A stretch of DNA of 6,470 nt from Acidobacteriaceae bacterium (GTDB lineage Bacteria > Acidobacteriota > Terriglobia > Terriglobales > Acidobacteriaceae), in assembly GCA_025462805.1 (NCBI GenBank), contig JAOAPJ010000038.1, forward strand, positions 1 to 6,470. Direction: 5' to 3'. Below are positions 1 through 6,470 of the stretch, one piece after another. Under the pieces are notes generated by a model that did no database searches, was not told the DNA's origin, and worked only from the letters and a program-made list of their open reading frames with translations. The position numbers and the translations under genes were made by a program. Position 1 is the stretch's first letter. The number at the start of each line of letters is the position of its first letter.

Positions 1-303
1 CACCACATCGCCTTTCGCGCGCCAGAGGATGCTGCGCAACGTGCCTGGCGTGAAGAGCTGAAGAAGGAAGCACTGGACGTGACGCCGGTGCTGGATCGGA
101 CCTACTTTCACTCGATCTACTTTCGCGAACCGGGCGGCGTGCTGTTCGAGATCGCAACCGATCCGCCAGGGTTCACATTTGATGAGCCGATCGAATCGTT
201 AGGCGAAGCGCTGAAGTTGCCGCCCTGGCTCGAGCCGAAGCGAGCGCTGATCGAACGTAGTCTGCCAGCCCTTACACTGCACCATCAGCGAGAGAAGCGA
301 TGA
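1..303 (+). CDS. ring-cleaving dioxygenase, VOC/glyoxalase superfamily (3' part)
   Basis: This is the C-terminal 100 residues of a gene whose start lies upstream of the window; the frame is open from base 1 and ends at TGA 301-303. The fragment begins [10 protein letters not shown], continues with [22 protein letters not shown] and ends with a tail containing LPPWLEPKR. This is the pattern of the last VOC module of extradiol-type ring-cleaving dioxygenases such as Bacillus MhqA/MhqO. In that family the metal (usually Fe2+) is held by two His and one Glu; the second His of HHIAF (fragment residue 2) and Glu50 in LFEIATD are the likely ligands in this half. Members are thought to open the ring of hydroquinone or catechol-like compounds in the cytoplasm. 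The stop overlaps the next start as ATGA, so the two genes are surely cotranscribed. The substrate cannot be read from the sequence. Confidence 0.9.
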
Positions 304-983
304 GCGCGCGCACTGCGGAACAGGGGAACGCGAACGACGATCCGCACGCGGGCTCTGCTGTGTTGTACGGCGGTGCCGCTCTGGAGCAGGCATCGCATGC
401 GCTGGTCCTGCTGCACGGCCGGGGCGCCTCCGCTGAGGACATCCTTTCGCTGGGTGGCGCACTCGCTTCCAGGCTTCATGCGGCGGGGCTTGCGTTGATT
501 GCGCCGCAGGCGGCGGGGTCCTCGTGGTATCCCTACTCGTTTCTCGCGCCGCGCGAGCAGAACGAGCCGTGGCTCTCCTCCGCACTGCGGCTGGTGGCAT
601 CGCTCGTAGAAGGCTGCATGGGGCGTGGGATTGCCGTTGAGCGGATCGGGGTCTGCGGGTTCTCGCAGGGCGCATGTCTGGGGACGGAGTTTGTCGCCAG
701 CAACCCCCGGCGCTATGGAGCGCTGATCGCATTCACGGGCGGACTGATCGGGCCACCAGGATCCGACTTGCGACACGCCGGATCACTCGAGGGAATGCCG
801 GCTCTGTTCAGCTCGGGCGATCCGGACCCGCATGTGCCGTGGCAGCGAGTGGAGGAATCGGCGGCCGTACTGCGGGAGATGGGCGCGACGGTAGAAGTGA
901 TGCGGCACGCTGGCCGTCCGCACACAGTGCTGCCGGTGGAGGTACGGGCGGCCCAGACGATGCTGCAGGCCTCCGGTTTTTAG
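300..983 (+). CDS. alpha/beta hydrolase, phospholipase/carboxylesterase family (MhqD-like)
   Basis: A 227-residue serine hydrolase of normal length for the family. Visible motifs are the oxyanion-side loop [10 protein letters not shown] (35-44), the substrate-side [14 protein letters not shown] (68-81), the nucleophile elbow GFSQG with Ser122, the acid in [10 protein letters not shown] (probably Asp176) and the catalytic His208 in GRPHTV. There is no signal peptide or membrane segment, so it should act in the cytoplasm on carboxylic esters or thioesters; the real substrate is unknown. The ATG at 300 overlaps the dioxygenase stop by 4 nt, and a purine-rich stretch (GAGAGAAG, 290-297) just upstream can serve as its ribosome site. 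In Bacillus, MhqD-type hydrolases are co-regulated with ring-cleaving dioxygenases under quinone stress, and the tight pairing here suggests the same two-step role. An acyl-protein thioesterase-like esterase with another role is the alternative. Confidence 0.9.
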
Positions 984-1063: not shown

Positions 1064-1130
1064 CAGAATGGTGTCTCAAGTGTCCTGAGCGGATTGATAT
1101 TCTGGACATAAGAGTTGAGATAGAGGCACG

Positions 1131-1167
1131 AGGGGTGGAGCGTAAGCGCTCTGCCCCTTTTTCTTTT
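1131..1167 (+). terminator. Rho-independent terminator hairpin
   Basis: AGGGGTGGAGCG (1131-1142) pairs with CGCTCTGCCCCT (1147-1158) over 12 bp, including two adjacent G-U pairs, closed by a TAAG loop. TTTTTCTTTT follows (1158-1167). The arrangement is a textbook plus-strand intrinsic terminator; the other strand has no T-run, so it is one-directional. It lies about 150 nt after the hydrolase stop and would end the dioxygenase-hydrolase transcript. It also ends only 8 nt before the first possible start of the next gene, so it may act as an attenuator for that gene. Confidence 0.82.
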
Positions 1168-1175
1168 GGTCTGGT

Positions 1176-1637
1176 TTGGGCGTGATTGGGGCAGTGGTGA
1201 CGAAGCAGGTGGGTTTGGGAAGCGGGGCGGCTGGGAGAGCGCGGAAGAGGGCTGCGAACGGACGGTTTCAGGGGTCGAAGCGGGTCGTGGCTAAAGCAGA
1301 TGCGGAGAAGGCGCCAGAGAAGAAGAAGCGGCCGATCAAGAACGTCGAGGAGTATGCGGATCGCGAGTTCCGGAGGGAGTTTCCGGAGATCTTCGACGGG
1401 CTATGCGGCGAGGCGAAGAAGGGCGGGGCGACGCAGGCACGGCTATTGGCGCAGTGGAGCAAGGCGGGCGATGCGAAGACGTCCAAACGGCGGGGCAAGA
1501 AGAGCCTGAGCGAGATGCTGCTGGACGAACTGAAGCGGCGGCAGGATGAGCGGGAGGCCGCAGCGGAGATGGCGGCAGGCGAACGAGAGCGCAGCAGCAA
1601 GGGAGCGACGAGTGGCGGCGATGCTGAACAGGACTAA
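1176..1637 (+). CDS. small highly charged protein of unknown function
   Basis: I do not recognise this family. The frame encodes up to 153 residues. The N-terminal third is basic and probably disordered (RARKRAANGRFQGSKR at 21-36, then EKKKRP at 48-53). A predicted helical core follows at about 54-98 (NVEEYADREFRREFPEIFDG and ATQARLLAQWSKAGD). After a second basic patch (KTSKRRGKK, 101-109) comes a long amphipathic helix, SLSEMLLDELKRRQDEREAA, and a Ser/Gly/Asp-rich tail. Such a layout fits a nucleic-acid-binding or scaffolding protein, but that is inference only. The start is uncertain: TTG 1176 is the longest choice, and GTG 1182, 1194, 1197 or 1209 are possible. None has a good Shine-Dalgarno, and GGGG (1188-1191) before GTG 1197 is the best. 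The 3' end overlaps the next gene by 17-26 nt, so the two are probably translationally coupled. Coding is supported by consistent GC-ending codons and an amphipathic pattern. Confidence 0.72.
   Translation: MGVIGAVVTKQVGLGSGAAGRARKRAANGRFQGSKRVVAKADAEKAPEKKKRPIKNVEEYADREFRREFPEIFDGLCGEAKKGGATQARLLAQWSKAGDAKTSKRRGKKSLSEMLLDELKRRQDEREAAAEMAAGERERSSKGATSGGDAEQD
1600..1605 (+). promoter_or_regulatory. Shine-Dalgarno favouring GTG 1612 as start of the large gene
   Basis: AGGGAG lies inside the upstream small gene and is 6 nt before GTG 1612, the ideal spacing. Relative to ATG 1621 the gap is 15 nt, which is too long. This supports GTG 1612 as the start, adding only three residues (MAA) in front of MLNRTNR. 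An ATG start with a weak site remains possible. Confidence 0.5.
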
Positions 1638-1707
1638 TCGGGGTTGGTGGCGTGGTGTGCTGTTGCTGGCGGGTTTGCTGGTGCTGGTGACATCGCCGGG
1701 CGTGGCA
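1612..1707 (+). other. signal peptide of the large protein
   Basis: A basic start (NRTNRGWWRG) is followed by the hydrophobic run VLLLAGLLVLV and a cleavage-like TSPGVA before LQTTT. This is a normal Sec signal peptide with probable signal peptidase I cleavage after Ala32. No lipobox Cys is present, so it is not a lipoprotein. An uncleaved N-terminal anchor is the alternative. Confidence 0.8.
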
Positions 1708-4700
1708 CTGCAGACGACGACGGTGCAGGACAGGGTGTACCGGGCAGACGGAACACCCGCGCAGGGGACGGTGCTGCTGAGCTGGCCAGCGTTCACGGCG
1801 GCGGATGGAACCGCGGTGGCGGCAGGCAACCAGACCTTGACCATCGGTGCGGGCGGCGCGCTGTCGATCGCGCTGACGGCGAATGCGGGCGCGACGCCGG
1901 CGGGCTCCTACTACACGGCGGTGTACCACCTGAACGACGGCACTGTGCAGAAGGAGTACTGGGTGGTGCCGCAGGCGGGACCGACGACGCTGAGCGCGAT
2001 TCGGGCGAATGTGGTGCCGGCAGCGGTGGCGCAGACGTGGTCGAGCCAGGCGACCATCAACGCGGCGTTGAGCTCGATGCAGACCAGCTTTCTACCGTTG
2101 AAGGGTGGTGCGGTCTCGGGGCCGATTACGTTGCCTGGGGATCCGTCGGCGGGACTGCAGGCAGCGACGAAGCAGTATGTGGACAGCCGGACGAGCCTTC
2201 CTGCGAATGCGATTCCTTATCAGGGCTCGAACGGTTCAGGGGTGGTGGCGGCGACCTTCGACAAGATCGTGGCGCCGTTTCACAGCACGGTGTATGTAAG
2301 TAATACGGTTACCTATTTCAGTACGGCTTTTAACGAAGGGGCGGCGGGCTCTGGGCTGATCGGCACGAGACCGGCGACTGACGTGCCGGGATCGTCCTGG
2401 ATCGGCAGTTCCGGGAGTACTACAGGGGGTGGCGTCTTCGTTTCGGGCGGCGGCGCACAGTTCGGGCCGGCGAACGCGGGCGCTCCCACGATTACTCTGC
2501 TGGACACGGGCAAGGCAGACTTTACCTGGACGCTGAGTAGTGTTCATTTGAGCGGAAGCGCGAGTGGCGGATTCCAGATCTACGCGCGAGCCAACAACCC
2601 GCTGAGCGCAGCTGAGGTGATTCAGTGGAGCCCGGGCGGGATGGTCGCCATTCAGGACGCCACGGGGAGCGGCTCTCCGGCGATTGTGGCTTCGGCGCAG
2701 ACTTCGGGCCTTAGCGGCGATATCGTTGTCACGCTCCATGGCCAAGCGATCACAGTGAACTGGTTCGGCACGGTGATCTCAGGGACGATACCGACGACCA
2801 CGAACAGCGGCAACACCTTCCTTGGGTTCAACCCCAACGGCAGCCTGGGAAACACCAATGACTGGGCGATGACGGTGAGTTCGATGACGGTGTCGCTCTC
2901 CGGACCAATGCCCTCGATGGTGGCCTGCAACGGCATTGTGCATTCGGACGGGAGCTGCGGGACGGTGGCTCCGAATCAGGGCATCGCTACGGATGCGAAC
3001 GGACACGCCACTCATCTTCCGGAGGTGCAGTACAGCACCGACAGCGCAGGCAATACGACGATTGCCTGCCAGGAGGATCATGACCGCGGCATCTTCGATC
3101 CGCGCTGCTCGCGGACGGAGAAGATCGACGGCAACAACACGGTGGTGACGATCTACACGAGCCCGGCTCTGGCGCTGCAGGAGACGGCGAACGAGGCGAA
3201 CTGCTGGGTGGCGAAGAACCATCGCGCGGCCACGATCAACTTGCCTCCAGGGAACTTCAAGGTTGGTTTACCGACGGAGCAGACGCTGACGTTTGGACCG
3301 GGTCAGCACATCCTGGGGTCGCCGAGCGGCACGGTGGGCGTAGGCGGTGCGAGTAACGAAGGCGGGACAATCTTCAACGCGACCTACACCAACGCGTATG
3401 TGGTGCAGGTGATCTCGCCCTACACGTCGATCTGTGGGGATGGCACAACGGCCACGAACGGAATGGACGGCGGCGATGTGGAGAACCTGCAGGCGGTGGG
3501 CTGCTCGGAAGGCGGATGCATCAATGCCCCGGGTGACACCAACACCTACGGGGGCGGCGGCCCCGGACAGGGCGGCATTTACGTGCTGCTGGGGCACGGC
3601 GTGGGCCGCAATCTGCGTGCGGCTTTCACCGGCGGCGTAGGCGTGAATGCGAACGGGCTGGACTCCGAGTTTTGGGATATGTGGTCTTACTCGGCCCTCG
3701 GCTACTATCGCTATGATCGCAGTCCGATCAACCCGGCTGCCGCACCTGGCACGGTGACGCCAGCCGCGTTCACTACGGGCGGAACGCTGGCGGCAGGAAC
3801 GTACTACTACGTGGTCACCGCAGTGACGACGGGAACCGCCGTGAAGGGAGAGACGACGGGCTCGCCGGAAACCATCGCGGTCACGACCAAGGGCACCGGC
3901 AGCATTGCGCTGAATTGGGCGCCAGTCAACAATGCGACCGGCTACAAGGTGTATCGCGGCACCGCATCTGGCGCGGAATTGGTCTACTACACGACCAGTA
4001 CGAACAGCTTCACCGACACAGGGACCGCTGGCACCGCAGGGGCCGTGCCCACGTCCAACACCAGTGGCTCCTACGATCCAACGACGGATCTTATCCACGG
4101 CGGCGTGGAGGCCGACGCGCTCGATGGGCGCTTCCATCACATCGAGACCTACGGCAGCTTTACCGCGCCCGGCAGCTCTGGCAGCGGGGCGAGCGAGTAT
4201 GGACACGTTTGCGGCGTGGTGGTGAACGGAGGCAATTCGACGGTGGATGACATCTTCGAGCAGATCGACGAGATGGGTGTCTGCAAACCATACGGGGGAA
4301 GCCGCGTTCGCATTTCGAATATCCGCGCGGAGGGCAACGCCGGGCCGAGCTTGTTTAATCAGGACTCGGACACCCTAGTCACACAAGGCGTGTTAACTCA
4401 GGGTTGCACGGTGCAGGCTGTCGTAACGCAGCAGGGCTTTTGTGATGACCTGGAGGACACCAGCGCGGGCGGCGGCACCTATGTCAACGTGAAGATCCGC
4501 GACGATCCCCACGCCCTGGGCACCAGCTACCGCACGGGATTCATCTCGCCGGGCAAGGCCAGCTTTTACGGAGTGGACCAGGCGAATGGAGATGGATTCG
4601 ATAAGACGTTCCCTGGCGCCAACGGCGACCAGATTGGGATTTACACGCAGGTTCCAGAGACGGATCCGGCGCTGCCCCAGGGCGGCACGACGCTGACTGG

Positions 4701-6470
4701 GAGTACTCCGGACGTTGGCGCGTTGCACCGTATCCAGATGCAGAATGGCAGTCCGACGAACATCACGGATGTGACGAATCCGACGATCGGCCAAGCGATG
4801 CATATTACCCTGGCGAGTGTGAATGATGTGCTGGTGGCGAAGGCAAACGGCGGCGCATGGCAGACCTGCACCGGCCAGAACATTGCCGGGCCGGCGGGTC
4901 CGATGACCTTCTGGGTGTTCGATCATGGGCAGCATCGGACGATTGCGGAGGAGTGCGACGCGTTGCCGGCCAGCCAGGTGGCGAACGCGGCGGACAAATC
5001 CAGCACCAGCGCGCAGGCGTTTAACGGGCAGATCACCGCGCCGCAGATTGGGACCGTGTATCAGGTGGACGGCTTTCCGTCCTCTTGCACCGTGGGCGGA
5101 ACGGCCTACACGACCAAGGCCGACTGCGCTTTCTATACGGCGAAGGCCGACGCTATAGCGCATAACTCCGTGCCGCTGGTTCAGTTCGGGGTAGGGAAGT
5201 ACCCGACCTGTGCGGGCCTCGACATGGGCAACGCGACTGCGTATGCAGTCAGCCTGAAGGGTGTGGGCGCAACTGCGCAGGGCGGTCATTTCGCCAACTC
5301 GACGACGACACTGCAGGCAAGCTGCGCGATGACCAATGTCATCAACCACGGTGACGTGTCCACGACCTCGAACTACTATCAGTTAGCGAACCTCAGCATC
5401 TCCGACCTCACTGTTGATGCTAACAACCTGGCGCAGCACTGTTGGGACATCGACGGTCTGGCGATGGCGACATTCAAGAACCTGACTTGCGGGTTCGCGA
5501 CCGGCACAGATTTTTATGCTCGCTTCGGTGACCCGTTTCCCGCAGGCGGTTTCCTGGGCGGCGATAACAACATCTACACGGACAACCTCTACATCGTAGG
5601 TGGGGGGCACGGTGTGCCTCAGTGGGCACAGGTCACAGCCTCGCAGACGGGCGGCGTCCCGAACTTCGCCGTCGCCAGCGGTGGCAGCTACATCAACTCG
5701 ATCTCGAAGGCTTATCTCTACGGCTACGGCGCTGGAGCATTCCCATGCACGAGAATGGGAACACTCACCGTCACCATGAGCGGATCAACCGTGTCAGCAG
5801 TGAGTGGCAGCGGATTCTCCGGCTGCACGGGGACGATGTACGTCGTCATCCCGGACATCCCTCCGGCGCAATATGGTTTGATCGTCACGGCCTCCGACTC
5901 TACTTTGAAAGACCTGGACGTATTCAACATCGGACAGACGGCGGGCCTTCAGGCCAACGGGGGAAACACCCACTATATCCACCTCCATACGCTGAGTCAG
6001 CCTGTGGGAGTGATCGATAACGGGGGGTCAACGTTCGACGCGCTGGAGATCGACTCGCCGGTTCACTACGGCATGCAGATCCAGAGTGCGACGACCGTTG
6101 TATCGAGCAAATCCTACTGGAATGCCTCATGGCCAGCCAGCGGAGACTTCTTCATAGGGAATAACTCCAGTGGCGCTCAGCTGCTCAACCATACCTGCGG
6201 AAACAATCAGACCGCCGGTGGCTATGCTGAGATCACAAGCCCGAATGGCCAGTTCCTCGGCGTCGCGCCGACGGCCAACCAGCCGGTGGCGTGGCCAGCA
6301 GGCGTGATCGCAGTCAATGCCCAGGAATGTGGTGGAGGCCATCAGAGTCTTAACTACAGGACGGGAGCGCAGCGCATTTACGGTTCTCTGAACCTGATCC
6401 CTCTCGGCTTCCCAATCATTTCGAGCGTAGTGCCCAACACGACGGGAACTTCGACGGTTACCTATGAAGT
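1612..6470 (+). CDS. giant secreted tail-fibre-like multidomain protein (5' part, open at window end)
   Basis: The frame is open for 1619 codons with no stop and leaves the window, so the full protein is larger. Residues are numbered from GTG 1612. In order it shows a Sec-type signal peptide (1-32), a beta-rich N-terminal domain (about 35-145, with RADGTPAQGTVLLSWPAF and KEYWVVP), a short helix, and a tail-fibre motif (160-192). These are followed by a lectin-like beta-sandwich (about 248-433), a beta-helix-like stretch (523-708 and 825-1018) split by a fibronectin-III-like domain (712-819), and a second beta-helix-like stretch (1150-1593). The protein is Gly/Thr/Ser/Asn-rich and poor in Lys, and it has 24 Cys, all after residue 438, as expected of an exported disulfide-bonded protein. 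No clear catalytic motif of pectate lyases or GH28 enzymes was found. Likely roles are cell-surface adhesin, polysaccharide binding or depolymerisation, all inferred. It overlaps the small charged gene upstream. I recall N-terminal domains of this type in acidobacterial hypothetical proteins, but could not check this. Confidence 0.9.
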   Translation, partial: MAAMLNRTNRGWWRGVLLLAGLLVLVTSPGVALQTTTVQDRVYRADGTPAQGTVLLSWPAFTAADGTAVAAGNQTLTIGAGGALSIALTANAGATPAGSYYTAVYHLNDGTVQKEYWVVPQAGPTTLSAIRANVVPAAVAQTWSSQATINAALSSMQTSFLPLKGGAVSGPITLPGDPSAGLQAATKQYVDSRTSLPANAIPYQGSNGSGVVAATFDKIVAPFHSTVYVSNTVTYFSTAFNEGAAGSGLIGTRPATDVPGSSWIGSSGSTTGGGVFVSGGGAQFGPANAGAPTITLLDTGKADFTWTLSSVHLSGSASGGFQIYARANNPLSAAEVIQWSPGGMVAIQDATGSGSPAIVASAQTSGLSGDIVVTLHGQAITVNWFGTVISGTIPTTTNSGNTFLGFNPNGSLGNTNDWAMTVSSMTVSLSGPMPSMVACNGIVHSDGSCGTVAPNQGIATDANGHATHLPEVQYSTDSAGNTTIACQEDHDRGIFDPRCSRTEKIDGNNTVVTIYTSPALALQETANEANCWVAKNHRAATINLPPGNFKVGLPTEQTLTFGPGQHILGSPSGTVGVGGASNEGGTIFNATYTNAYVVQVISPYTSICGDGTTATNGMDGGDVENLQAVGCSEGGCINAPGDTNTYGGGGPGQGGIYVLLGHGVGRNLRAAFTGGVGVNANGLDSEFWDMWSYSALGYYRYDRSPINPAAAPGTVTPAAFTTGGTLAAGTYYYVVTAVTTGTAVKGETTGSPETIAVTTKGTGSIALNWAPVNNATGYKVYRGTASGAELVYYTTSTNSFTDTGTAGTAGAVPTSNTSGSYDPTTDLIHGGVEADALDGRFHHIETYGSFTAPGSSGSGASEYGHVCGVVVNGGNSTVDDIFEQIDEMGVCKPYGGSRVRISNIRAEGNAGPSLFNQDSDTLVTQGVLTQGCTVQAVVTQQGFCDDLEDTSAGGGTYVNVKIRDDPHALGTSYRTGFISPGKASFYGVDQANGDGFDKTFPGANGDQIGIYTQVPETDPALPQGGTTLTGSTPDVGALHRIQMQNGSPTNITDVTNPTIGQAMHITLASVNDVLVAKANGGAWQTCTGQNIAGPAGPMTFWVFDHGQHRTIAEECDALPASQVANAADKSSTSAQAFNGQITAPQIGTVYQVDGFPSSCTVGGTAYTTKADCAFYTAKADAIAHNSVPLVQFGVGKYPTCAGLDMGNATAYAVSLKGVGATAQGGHFANSTTTLQASCAMTNVINHGDVSTTSNYYQLANLSISDLTVDANNLAQHCWDIDGLAMATFKNLTCGFATGTDFYARFGDPFPAGGFLGGDNNIYTDNLYIVGGGHGVPQWAQVTASQTGGVPNFAVASGGSYINSISKAYLYGYGAGAFPCTRMGTLTVTMSGSTVSAVSGSGFSGCTGTMYVVIPDIPPAQYGLIVTASDSTLKDLDVFNIGQTAGLQANGGNTHYIHLHTLSQPVGVIDNGGSTFDALEIDSPVHYGMQIQSATTVVSSKSYWNASWPASGDFFIGNNSSGAQLLNHTCGNNQTAGGYAEITSPNGQFLGVAPTANQPVAWPAGVIAVNAQECGGGHQSLNYRTGAQRIYGSLNLIPLGFPIISSVVPNTTGTSTVTYE
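2089..2187 (+). other. phage tail-fibre-type motif within the large protein
   Basis: Residues 160-192 read FLPLKGGAVSGPITLPGDP, then SAGLQAATKQYVDS. This closely matches the LPLxGGTMTGPLxLxGDPxxxLxAATKQYVD motif that occurs, often repeated, in phage tail fibres and collar-type fibres. Only one copy is seen here, preceded by a short helical stretch (ATINAALSSMQTSF). In fibres this unit is linked with trimer formation, so the protein may be a trimer; that is inference. Confidence 0.8.
2350..2910 (+). other. possible LamG/concanavalin-like lectin domain
   Basis: About 185 residues (248-433) with alternating beta strands. The strand GDIVVTLHGQAITVNWFGTV, then a loop, then NTFLGFNPN and DWAMTVSSMTVSLSG resemble the end of laminin-G-like jelly rolls, where a hydrophobic 'V.L.G..I.V...G' strand precedes 'G..GF....W.....V'. 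It contains no Cys. Carbohydrate binding is plausible but not shown; it may be another beta-sandwich. Confidence 0.4.
3181..4665 (+). other. first beta-helix-like (pectin-lyase-fold) region, interrupted by an FN3-like domain
   Basis: The region opens with a helix (ETANEANCWVAKNHRA) and then ATINLPPGNFKVG, the usual entry of pectate-lyase-3-like beta-helices (helix, then 'I.LPPG.Y.I'). Short turns such as GDVENLQAVGCSEGG follow. After the inserted domain the pattern resumes with FHHIETYGSF, VDDIFEQIDEMGVC, SRVRISNIRAEGN and TYVNVKIRDD, all typical of beta-helix rungs. No catalytic Asp or Lys set of the known lyases could be assigned. Confidence 0.6.
3745..4068 (+). other. fibronectin-type-III-like domain
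   Basis: Residues 712-819 contain GTLAAGTYYYVVTAVT, a middle strand ending GSIALNWAPVNNATGYKVYR, and NSFTDTGTAG. These are the strands of an Ig-like/FN3 fold as seen in secreted bacterial enzymes ('G.YYY.VTAV...G', 'L.W..V..A.GY.VYR', 'F.DTG'). It has no Cys. It sits within the first beta-helix region and may be a linker or a carbohydrate-contacting insert. Confidence 0.75.
5059..6390 (+). other. second beta-helix-like (pectin-lyase-fold) region
   Basis: Starting at VYQVDGFPSSCTVGG, it has an entry helix (DCAFYTAKADAIAHNS), then PLVQFGVGKYPTCAGLDM, and then many rung-like strands: AYAVSLKGVGATAQ, YYQLANLSISDLTVDANN, AMATFKNLTCGF, NIYTDNLYIVGGGHG, YINSISKAYLYGYG, YGLIVTASDSTLKDLDVFN and THYIHLHTLSQPVGV. 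The last run resembles tail-spike and pectin-lyase-like ladders. Enzyme function is not evident. Confidence 0.65.
6412..6470 (+). other. probable start of another FN3-like domain, cut by the window edge
   Basis: The last residues read PIISSVVPNTTGTSTVTYE. A Pro-rich linker followed by 'GTSTVTYE' looks like the first strands of an FN3-like domain, comparable to 'GTYYYVVTAV' in the earlier one. Only about 19 residues are visible, so this is tentative. Confidence 0.35.

Follow-up and report, generated by a model that had tools for sequence, protein, structure and literature searches.

Phage fibres are assembled in the cytoplasm and normally carry no signal peptide. What, then, is a very large protein made of tail-fibre and tailspike-like parts, headed by a predicted Sec signal, doing on a bacterial chromosome? 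The gene in question, gene B, closes a 6,470-nucleotide stretch of DNA from an Acidobacteriaceae bacterium (contig JAOAPJ010000038.1; the window, hereafter, is this whole stretch at its full length). An initial annotation had taken its product for a host protein that uses tail-fibre parts at the cell surface. We consider it likely, instead, that the small gene A and gene B behind it open a cluster of caudoviricete origin that the Acidobacteriaceae and near relatives have domesticated and inherit vertically, an element like a gene transfer agent (GTA-like), with B as an exported tailspike-like protein. The window contains the following features:

1..303, + strand: 3' end of a glyoxalase-fold gene (PF00903, E 2.6e-5); left host flank, outside the cluster
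300..983, + strand: alpha/beta hydrolase gene (PF02230, E 1.5e-15); left host flank, outside the cluster
1094..1119, + strand: leader motif TTGATATTCTGGAnnTAAGAGTTGAG, common to the window and KBS 83; possible promoter region
1130..1168, + strand: terminator-like hairpin (13 pairs) with a T-run, directly 5' of gene A; possible leader terminator
1197..1637, + strand: gene A, ~146 aa; start at 1176, 1182, 1194 or 1197
1612..6470, + strand: gene B; start at GTG 1612 or ATG 1621; 5' end overlapping gene A; no stop codon within the window
1621..1707, + strand: B aa 1-29, predicted Sec signal peptide
1714..1971, + strand: B aa 32-117, conserved N-terminal beta-sandwich domain, family-specific
2089..2190, + strand: B aa 157-190, phage tail-fibre repeat (KQYVD type)
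2305..2898, + strand: B aa 229-426, lectin- or CBM-like beta-sandwich
3013..4800, + strand: B aa ~465-1060, right-handed beta-helix of the tailspike and alginate epimerase/lyase type
3757..4017, + strand: B aa ~713-799, FN3-like insert within the beta-helix (our assignment)
5002..6351, + strand: B aa 1128-1577, second conserved module (32-34% to six homologues)

Domains and predicted export of B

The architecture first proposed for B was borne out. Its very large frame, which stays open as far as the window reaches, begins with a Sec-type signal; behind this come a tail-fibre repeat, a sandwich of lectin-like type, a beta-helix like that of tailspikes and a further conserved module. The claim of two beta-helices holds for the first of them (aa ~465-1060, tailspike-type fold), while the second conserved module (aa 1128-1577) is probably another; we assign an FN3-like insert in the beta-helix (aa ~713-799). 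B matched no sequence in the PDB, and neither gene A nor gene B matched a Pfam, PHROGs or NCBIfam family at E 0.001. The best PDB fold matches of B include exported polysaccharide enzymes. Identity is ~10% to the phage tailspikes Dettilon gp208, Sf6 and HK620, from which B differs by its added signal and family-specific N-terminal domain, and 13-14% to the alginate epimerase/lyase family (8ja4, AlgE4). From this fold, B may bind or cleave polysaccharide.

The B of the window has both the tail-fibre repeat and the beta-helix fold by which a phage tail fibre or tailspike would be known; its family departs from such proteins in the matter of cytoplasmic assembly with no signal peptide, as hydropathy predicted a signal in every one of the 22 B proteins examined. 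A clear failure of signal prediction, named by the initial annotation as grounds for giving up its reading, was thus not seen, and export of B through Sec is well supported by sequence. The N-terminal region is the constant part of the family: aa 50-130 are covered by 118 of the 119 homologues compared (the best-scoring 119 of 280), and the strict tail-fibre repeat pattern is absent from 12 of 22 relatives. Across homologues the start is conserved and the middle and end are exchanged, which fits a recognition role. The combination of signal and N-terminal domain occurred in none of 80 viral loci among the viral-contig matches listed. Viral-contig matches that seemed to span the N-terminal domain proved to be alignments along repeated tail-fibre units, or partial.

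Gene A encodes a conserved helical protein with 152 homologues; its predicted structure is all-helix (pLDDT 60, a model too weak for a fold search). A peptide-pattern scan of genome contigs found it at one locus, the A-B pair of KBS 83, and at none in viral contigs, and profile searches matched it in 25 of 200 genomes. It is present in 13 of the 21 clusters of relatives described below. If we were to guess from its position, A would be a putative small terminase subunit; such subunits are small, helical, DNA-binding oligomers whose genes adjoin that of the large subunit. The genomes G031 and G033, the latter of which we take to be Ellin345, have an extra gene between A and B that looks by eye like a dual-specificity phosphatase.

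The cluster around B in related genomes

A search for homologues and for phage genes beside them, as the initial annotation had proposed, placed B in company. Among 200 genomes of unstated completeness drawn evenly from the family Acidobacteriaceae, the N-terminal region of B was matched in 136, nearly always as a single copy, a terminase in 111, and both in 105. In all 90 genomes with the two on one contig, B lies upstream of the terminase on the same strand, at 1.7 to 14.2 kb (median 5.0 kb; one piece was used per genome where a gene came in several). Phage genes beside B are therefore the rule. The conserved signal, the phage-fibre-like parts and the location in bacterial chromosomes all support the idea of a host protein with tail-fibre parts; what fell away is its isolation, since B belongs as a fixed component to a cluster of packaging and head genes of phage origin (ahead of the terminase in 90/90).

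The order of this cluster can be read in KBS 83: A and B, a 127-aa frame, the terminase large subunit (phrog_2, E 8e-29), a HipA-like gene, a DUF3037 gene, the portal (PF04860, E 2e-53), a protein at the protease position, a coiled-coil protein, the capsid candidate, a head-tail adaptor (phrog_442, E 1e-17), four unknown genes and, beyond these, host genes resembling purE and purK. For the capsid candidate there are 4148 homologues; two among those listed are labelled automatically as 'Major capsid protein' and 'Capsid protein'. The candidate owes its own name to these labels and to its position, since PHROGs, Pfam and the PDB (the last searched by profile) gave no match. Neither a tail tube nor a tape measure was recognised among the cluster genes. 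The integrase, replication and lysis genes that would mark a prophage were likewise unrecognised among the 15 KBS 83 cluster ORFs (13 by PHROGs, 2 by Pfam; divergent ones could escape).

Reading around the terminase in 21 genomes, we found B and nine other cluster genes in every one. In 20 of the 21, the terminase and the portal are separated by the HipA-like and DUF3037 genes (for example L081:15360-17161); purE and purK are present in 15 and an XRE-like gene in 16, and at least one common host flank is present in 20. A Gfo/Idh/MocA flank gene was identified by profile; the names purE, purK, bkdE2, lipB and mltG are those that we presume for flank genes from their sequences. Three genomes (G150, G168, G196) have the block from the protease to g312 shifted ahead of B and the terminase.

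The window itself stops ahead of any terminase, and we judge its membership of the cluster from A, B and the leader that it has in common with KBS 83; from the synteny and other features observed in relatives, we infer that the remainder of the cluster follows B in the window's organism. Its left flank of hydrolase and glyoxalase genes is unlike that of relatives, which have a sigma-like gene (18/21) and the XRE-like gene (16/21) upstream. The hydrolase was considered as a site marker and rejected: it has homologues in 21 of the 200 family genomes, and in none of these does it adjoin a terminase.

B occurs without a terminase match in 31 of the 136 genomes, and 15 of these loci (L312-L326) were fetched and read. 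Eleven have other cluster or flank genes at the site, two of them on contigs that end shortly past B. In eight of these 11 (of the 15 in all), B is followed at once, at the same site, by the closing genes of the cluster or by host genes of the downstream flank; these loci look like deletion remnants that have lost the head genes and kept B and the last genes. The stretch examined in the remaining four (G003, G016, G079, G190) holds no cluster or flank gene, and B may there stand without the cluster.

Inheritance, and what the cluster may be

Taken singly, the cluster proteins from A to g83 have distances that track the rpoB distances (r 0.70-0.91), and eight joined cluster proteins gave a Mantel r of 0.91 (p 0.002, 499 permutations; frames were checked, and G181 was included by a partial rpoB). 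Ten of 18 cluster splits are common to the rpoB tree, as against at most four when the labels were shuffled 1000 times. The rpoB tree lacks six of the 16 cluster splits that are well supported, and the cluster tree lacks four of the 12 rpoB splits, which points to some residual exchange or tree error. The capsid candidate and purE are alike in conservation (mean identity 0.80 and 0.77). By the Nei-Gojobori method, four pairs gave dN/dS values of 0.02-0.29 for genes other than B; for B itself, the three pairs that allowed the calculation gave 0.17-0.49 (some ratios were not computable). The ratios are rough because dS exceeds 1 in many cases. The cluster genes are under purifying selection.

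In a sample of the phylum, 41 of 396 genomes had a terminase match at E 1e-15, 35 of them at 49% identity or more and six at 37% or less. The cluster terminase is only distantly related to those of phages, the closest being 35% identical. Seven viral contigs among the best 80 matches reach 54-66%; six of these hold further cluster genes, and the seventh ends inside the terminase. These contigs (L202-L208) are pieces of the chromosomal cluster catalogued as viral in IMG/VR. The sporadic sites and horizontal spread of prophages were not what we observed: the site is shared and the cluster co-diverges with its hosts. Nor did homologues fall mainly inside intact prophage tail modules, the outcome that the initial annotation had set against itself; as worded this did not occur, as the neighbours of B are packaging and head genes of a vertical element in which an integrase was unrecognised.

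The definition of GTAs in the part of PMC9662315 available here combines caudoviricete-derived proteins, full endogenisation and mostly vertical inheritance with co-diversification with the host; a GTA also packages mostly random host DNA, not its whole own genome, and delivers it to other cells. Functional GTAs are listed there for alphaproteobacteria, a deltaproteobacterium, a methanogen and a spirochete. The three marks that can be tested by sequence are present, which is why we call the cluster GTA-like: relatives, the window itself excepted, have caudoviricete-derived proteins by profile (terminase, portal, head-tail adaptor); the cluster sits among host genes (common flank in 20/21); and it is mostly vertical, co-diversifying with the host (r 0.91, 10/18 splits), with six of 16 supported splits disagreeing. 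Like GTAs it is a chromosomally fixed set of packaging and head genes; unlike known GTAs, as far as the literature consulted describes them, it has a signal-bearing tailspike-like gene at its head. No GTA of Acidobacteriota was described among the matches listed in a search of titles and abstract starts of the open-access literature, bioRxiv being outside its scope.

The element has nonetheless been seen before, as a prophage. In the portion at hand of Eichorst et al. 2018 (PMC5900883), six acidobacterial loci form prophage cluster 153 and are called prophages, probably active; the Ellin345 range of that cluster, 5150000-5190000, contains the G033 terminase. Vertical inheritance, the shared site and an exported B are not discussed in that portion. 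The phage-like contigs matching an Acidobacteriaceae genome in the accessible text of PMC12142844, which raises GTAs as a general possibility, or the Terriglobales provirus group mentioned in that of PMC11924767, may touch the same element.

How might a GTA-like cluster use an exported protein? Producer cells would make capsids that package DNA, as the terminase, portal, adaptor and capsid candidate suggest, with A perhaps as small terminase subunit. The producer would export B through Sec, and B would bind or cleave extracellular or capsular polysaccharide, letting particles leave the producer's matrix or reach the recipient's surface. A protein out of the cytoplasm before lysis could not be assembled onto particles there; exported B would act on the matrix or join particles after their release. 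We put forward only tentatively the full form of this proposal, a functional, independently domesticated GTA of the Acidobacteriaceae that exports its own glycan-active tailspike-like protein via Sec, so that the component which recognises a target or opens the matrix would work, or be attached, outside the cell rather than being assembled onto particles in the cytoplasm. If it is a GTA, one of the commonest groups of soil bacteria has a built-in route of gene exchange. The candidate could be tested at once in the cultured genus Acidobacterium, to which G048 presumably belongs, and the exported tailspike-like gene raises a new question: what use a particle of phage origin makes of a protein exported from the cytoplasm.

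Among the alternatives, B could be a genuine fibre of the particles, one that reaches the periplasm by export and joins them at lysis, or one whose signal is bypassed. We regard this as a real possibility, though well short of an even chance: the pattern of a constant N-terminus and exchanged C-terminal parts that it shares with phage fibres, the tailspike-type beta-helix with its tail-fibre repeat, and the position in the cluster all speak for it, against which stand the signal retained in 22 of 22 proteins, the strict repeat missing from 12 of 22, and the pairing of signal and N-terminal domain in none of the 80 viral loci among the matches listed. It is rather unlikely that the cluster is a domesticated capsid system serving protein delivery, a nanocompartment or defence with no DNA transfer. 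Tail genes are indeed unrecognised, and the HipA-like and DUF3037 genes are constant (20/21 clusters), but terminase and portal are kept under purifying selection, which implies DNA packaging.

A free-standing host surface adhesin or polysaccharide enzyme with borrowed tail-fibre modules seems less probable again. The conserved signal (22/22), the exported polysaccharide enzymes among the best PDB matches and the 31 of 136 genomes with B and no terminase would suit it; B is, however, nearly always single-copy and ahead of the terminase in all 90 genomes that have the two on one contig, and 11 of 15 terminase-less loci retain other cluster or flank genes. Least probable is an ordinary prophage or remnant whose fibre gene has a hydrophobic N-terminus by chance: packaging and head genes are present and prophage cluster 153 is made up of six loci of this kind (in the portion of PMC5900883 cited above), but the common site and gene set over 20-21 genomes, co-divergence with rpoB, purifying selection, the unrecognised integrase, replication and lysis genes among 15 KBS 83 ORFs and a nearest phage terminase only 35% identical all argue against it.

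Leader, hairpins and candidate regulators

The GTA-like cluster also has recurrent signals in its DNA. The leader motif is common to the window and KBS 83 despite a different upstream gene; no sigma-70 consensus was found in the leader region ahead of gene A. A hairpin of the window's type, with a different stem sequence, lies near the start of A in 11 of 13 genomes. Among the 18 clusters with the normal gene order, 15 have a terminator-like hairpin ahead of A or B and 17 have one ahead of the portal, and these clusters contain 88 hairpins as against 15 in one block shuffle; three of ten control genes also have them (portal 20/21, capsid 11/21, adaptor 11/21). Conserved hairpins inside a co-directional cluster, together with the shared leader, make control by antitermination, or terminator read-through, possible. 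A candidate regulator of the cluster is a sigma-70 region-4-like gene found upstream of it in 18 of 21 genomes (for example L140:5278-5829, - strand), with a Pfam match below the cut-off (E 0.0045).
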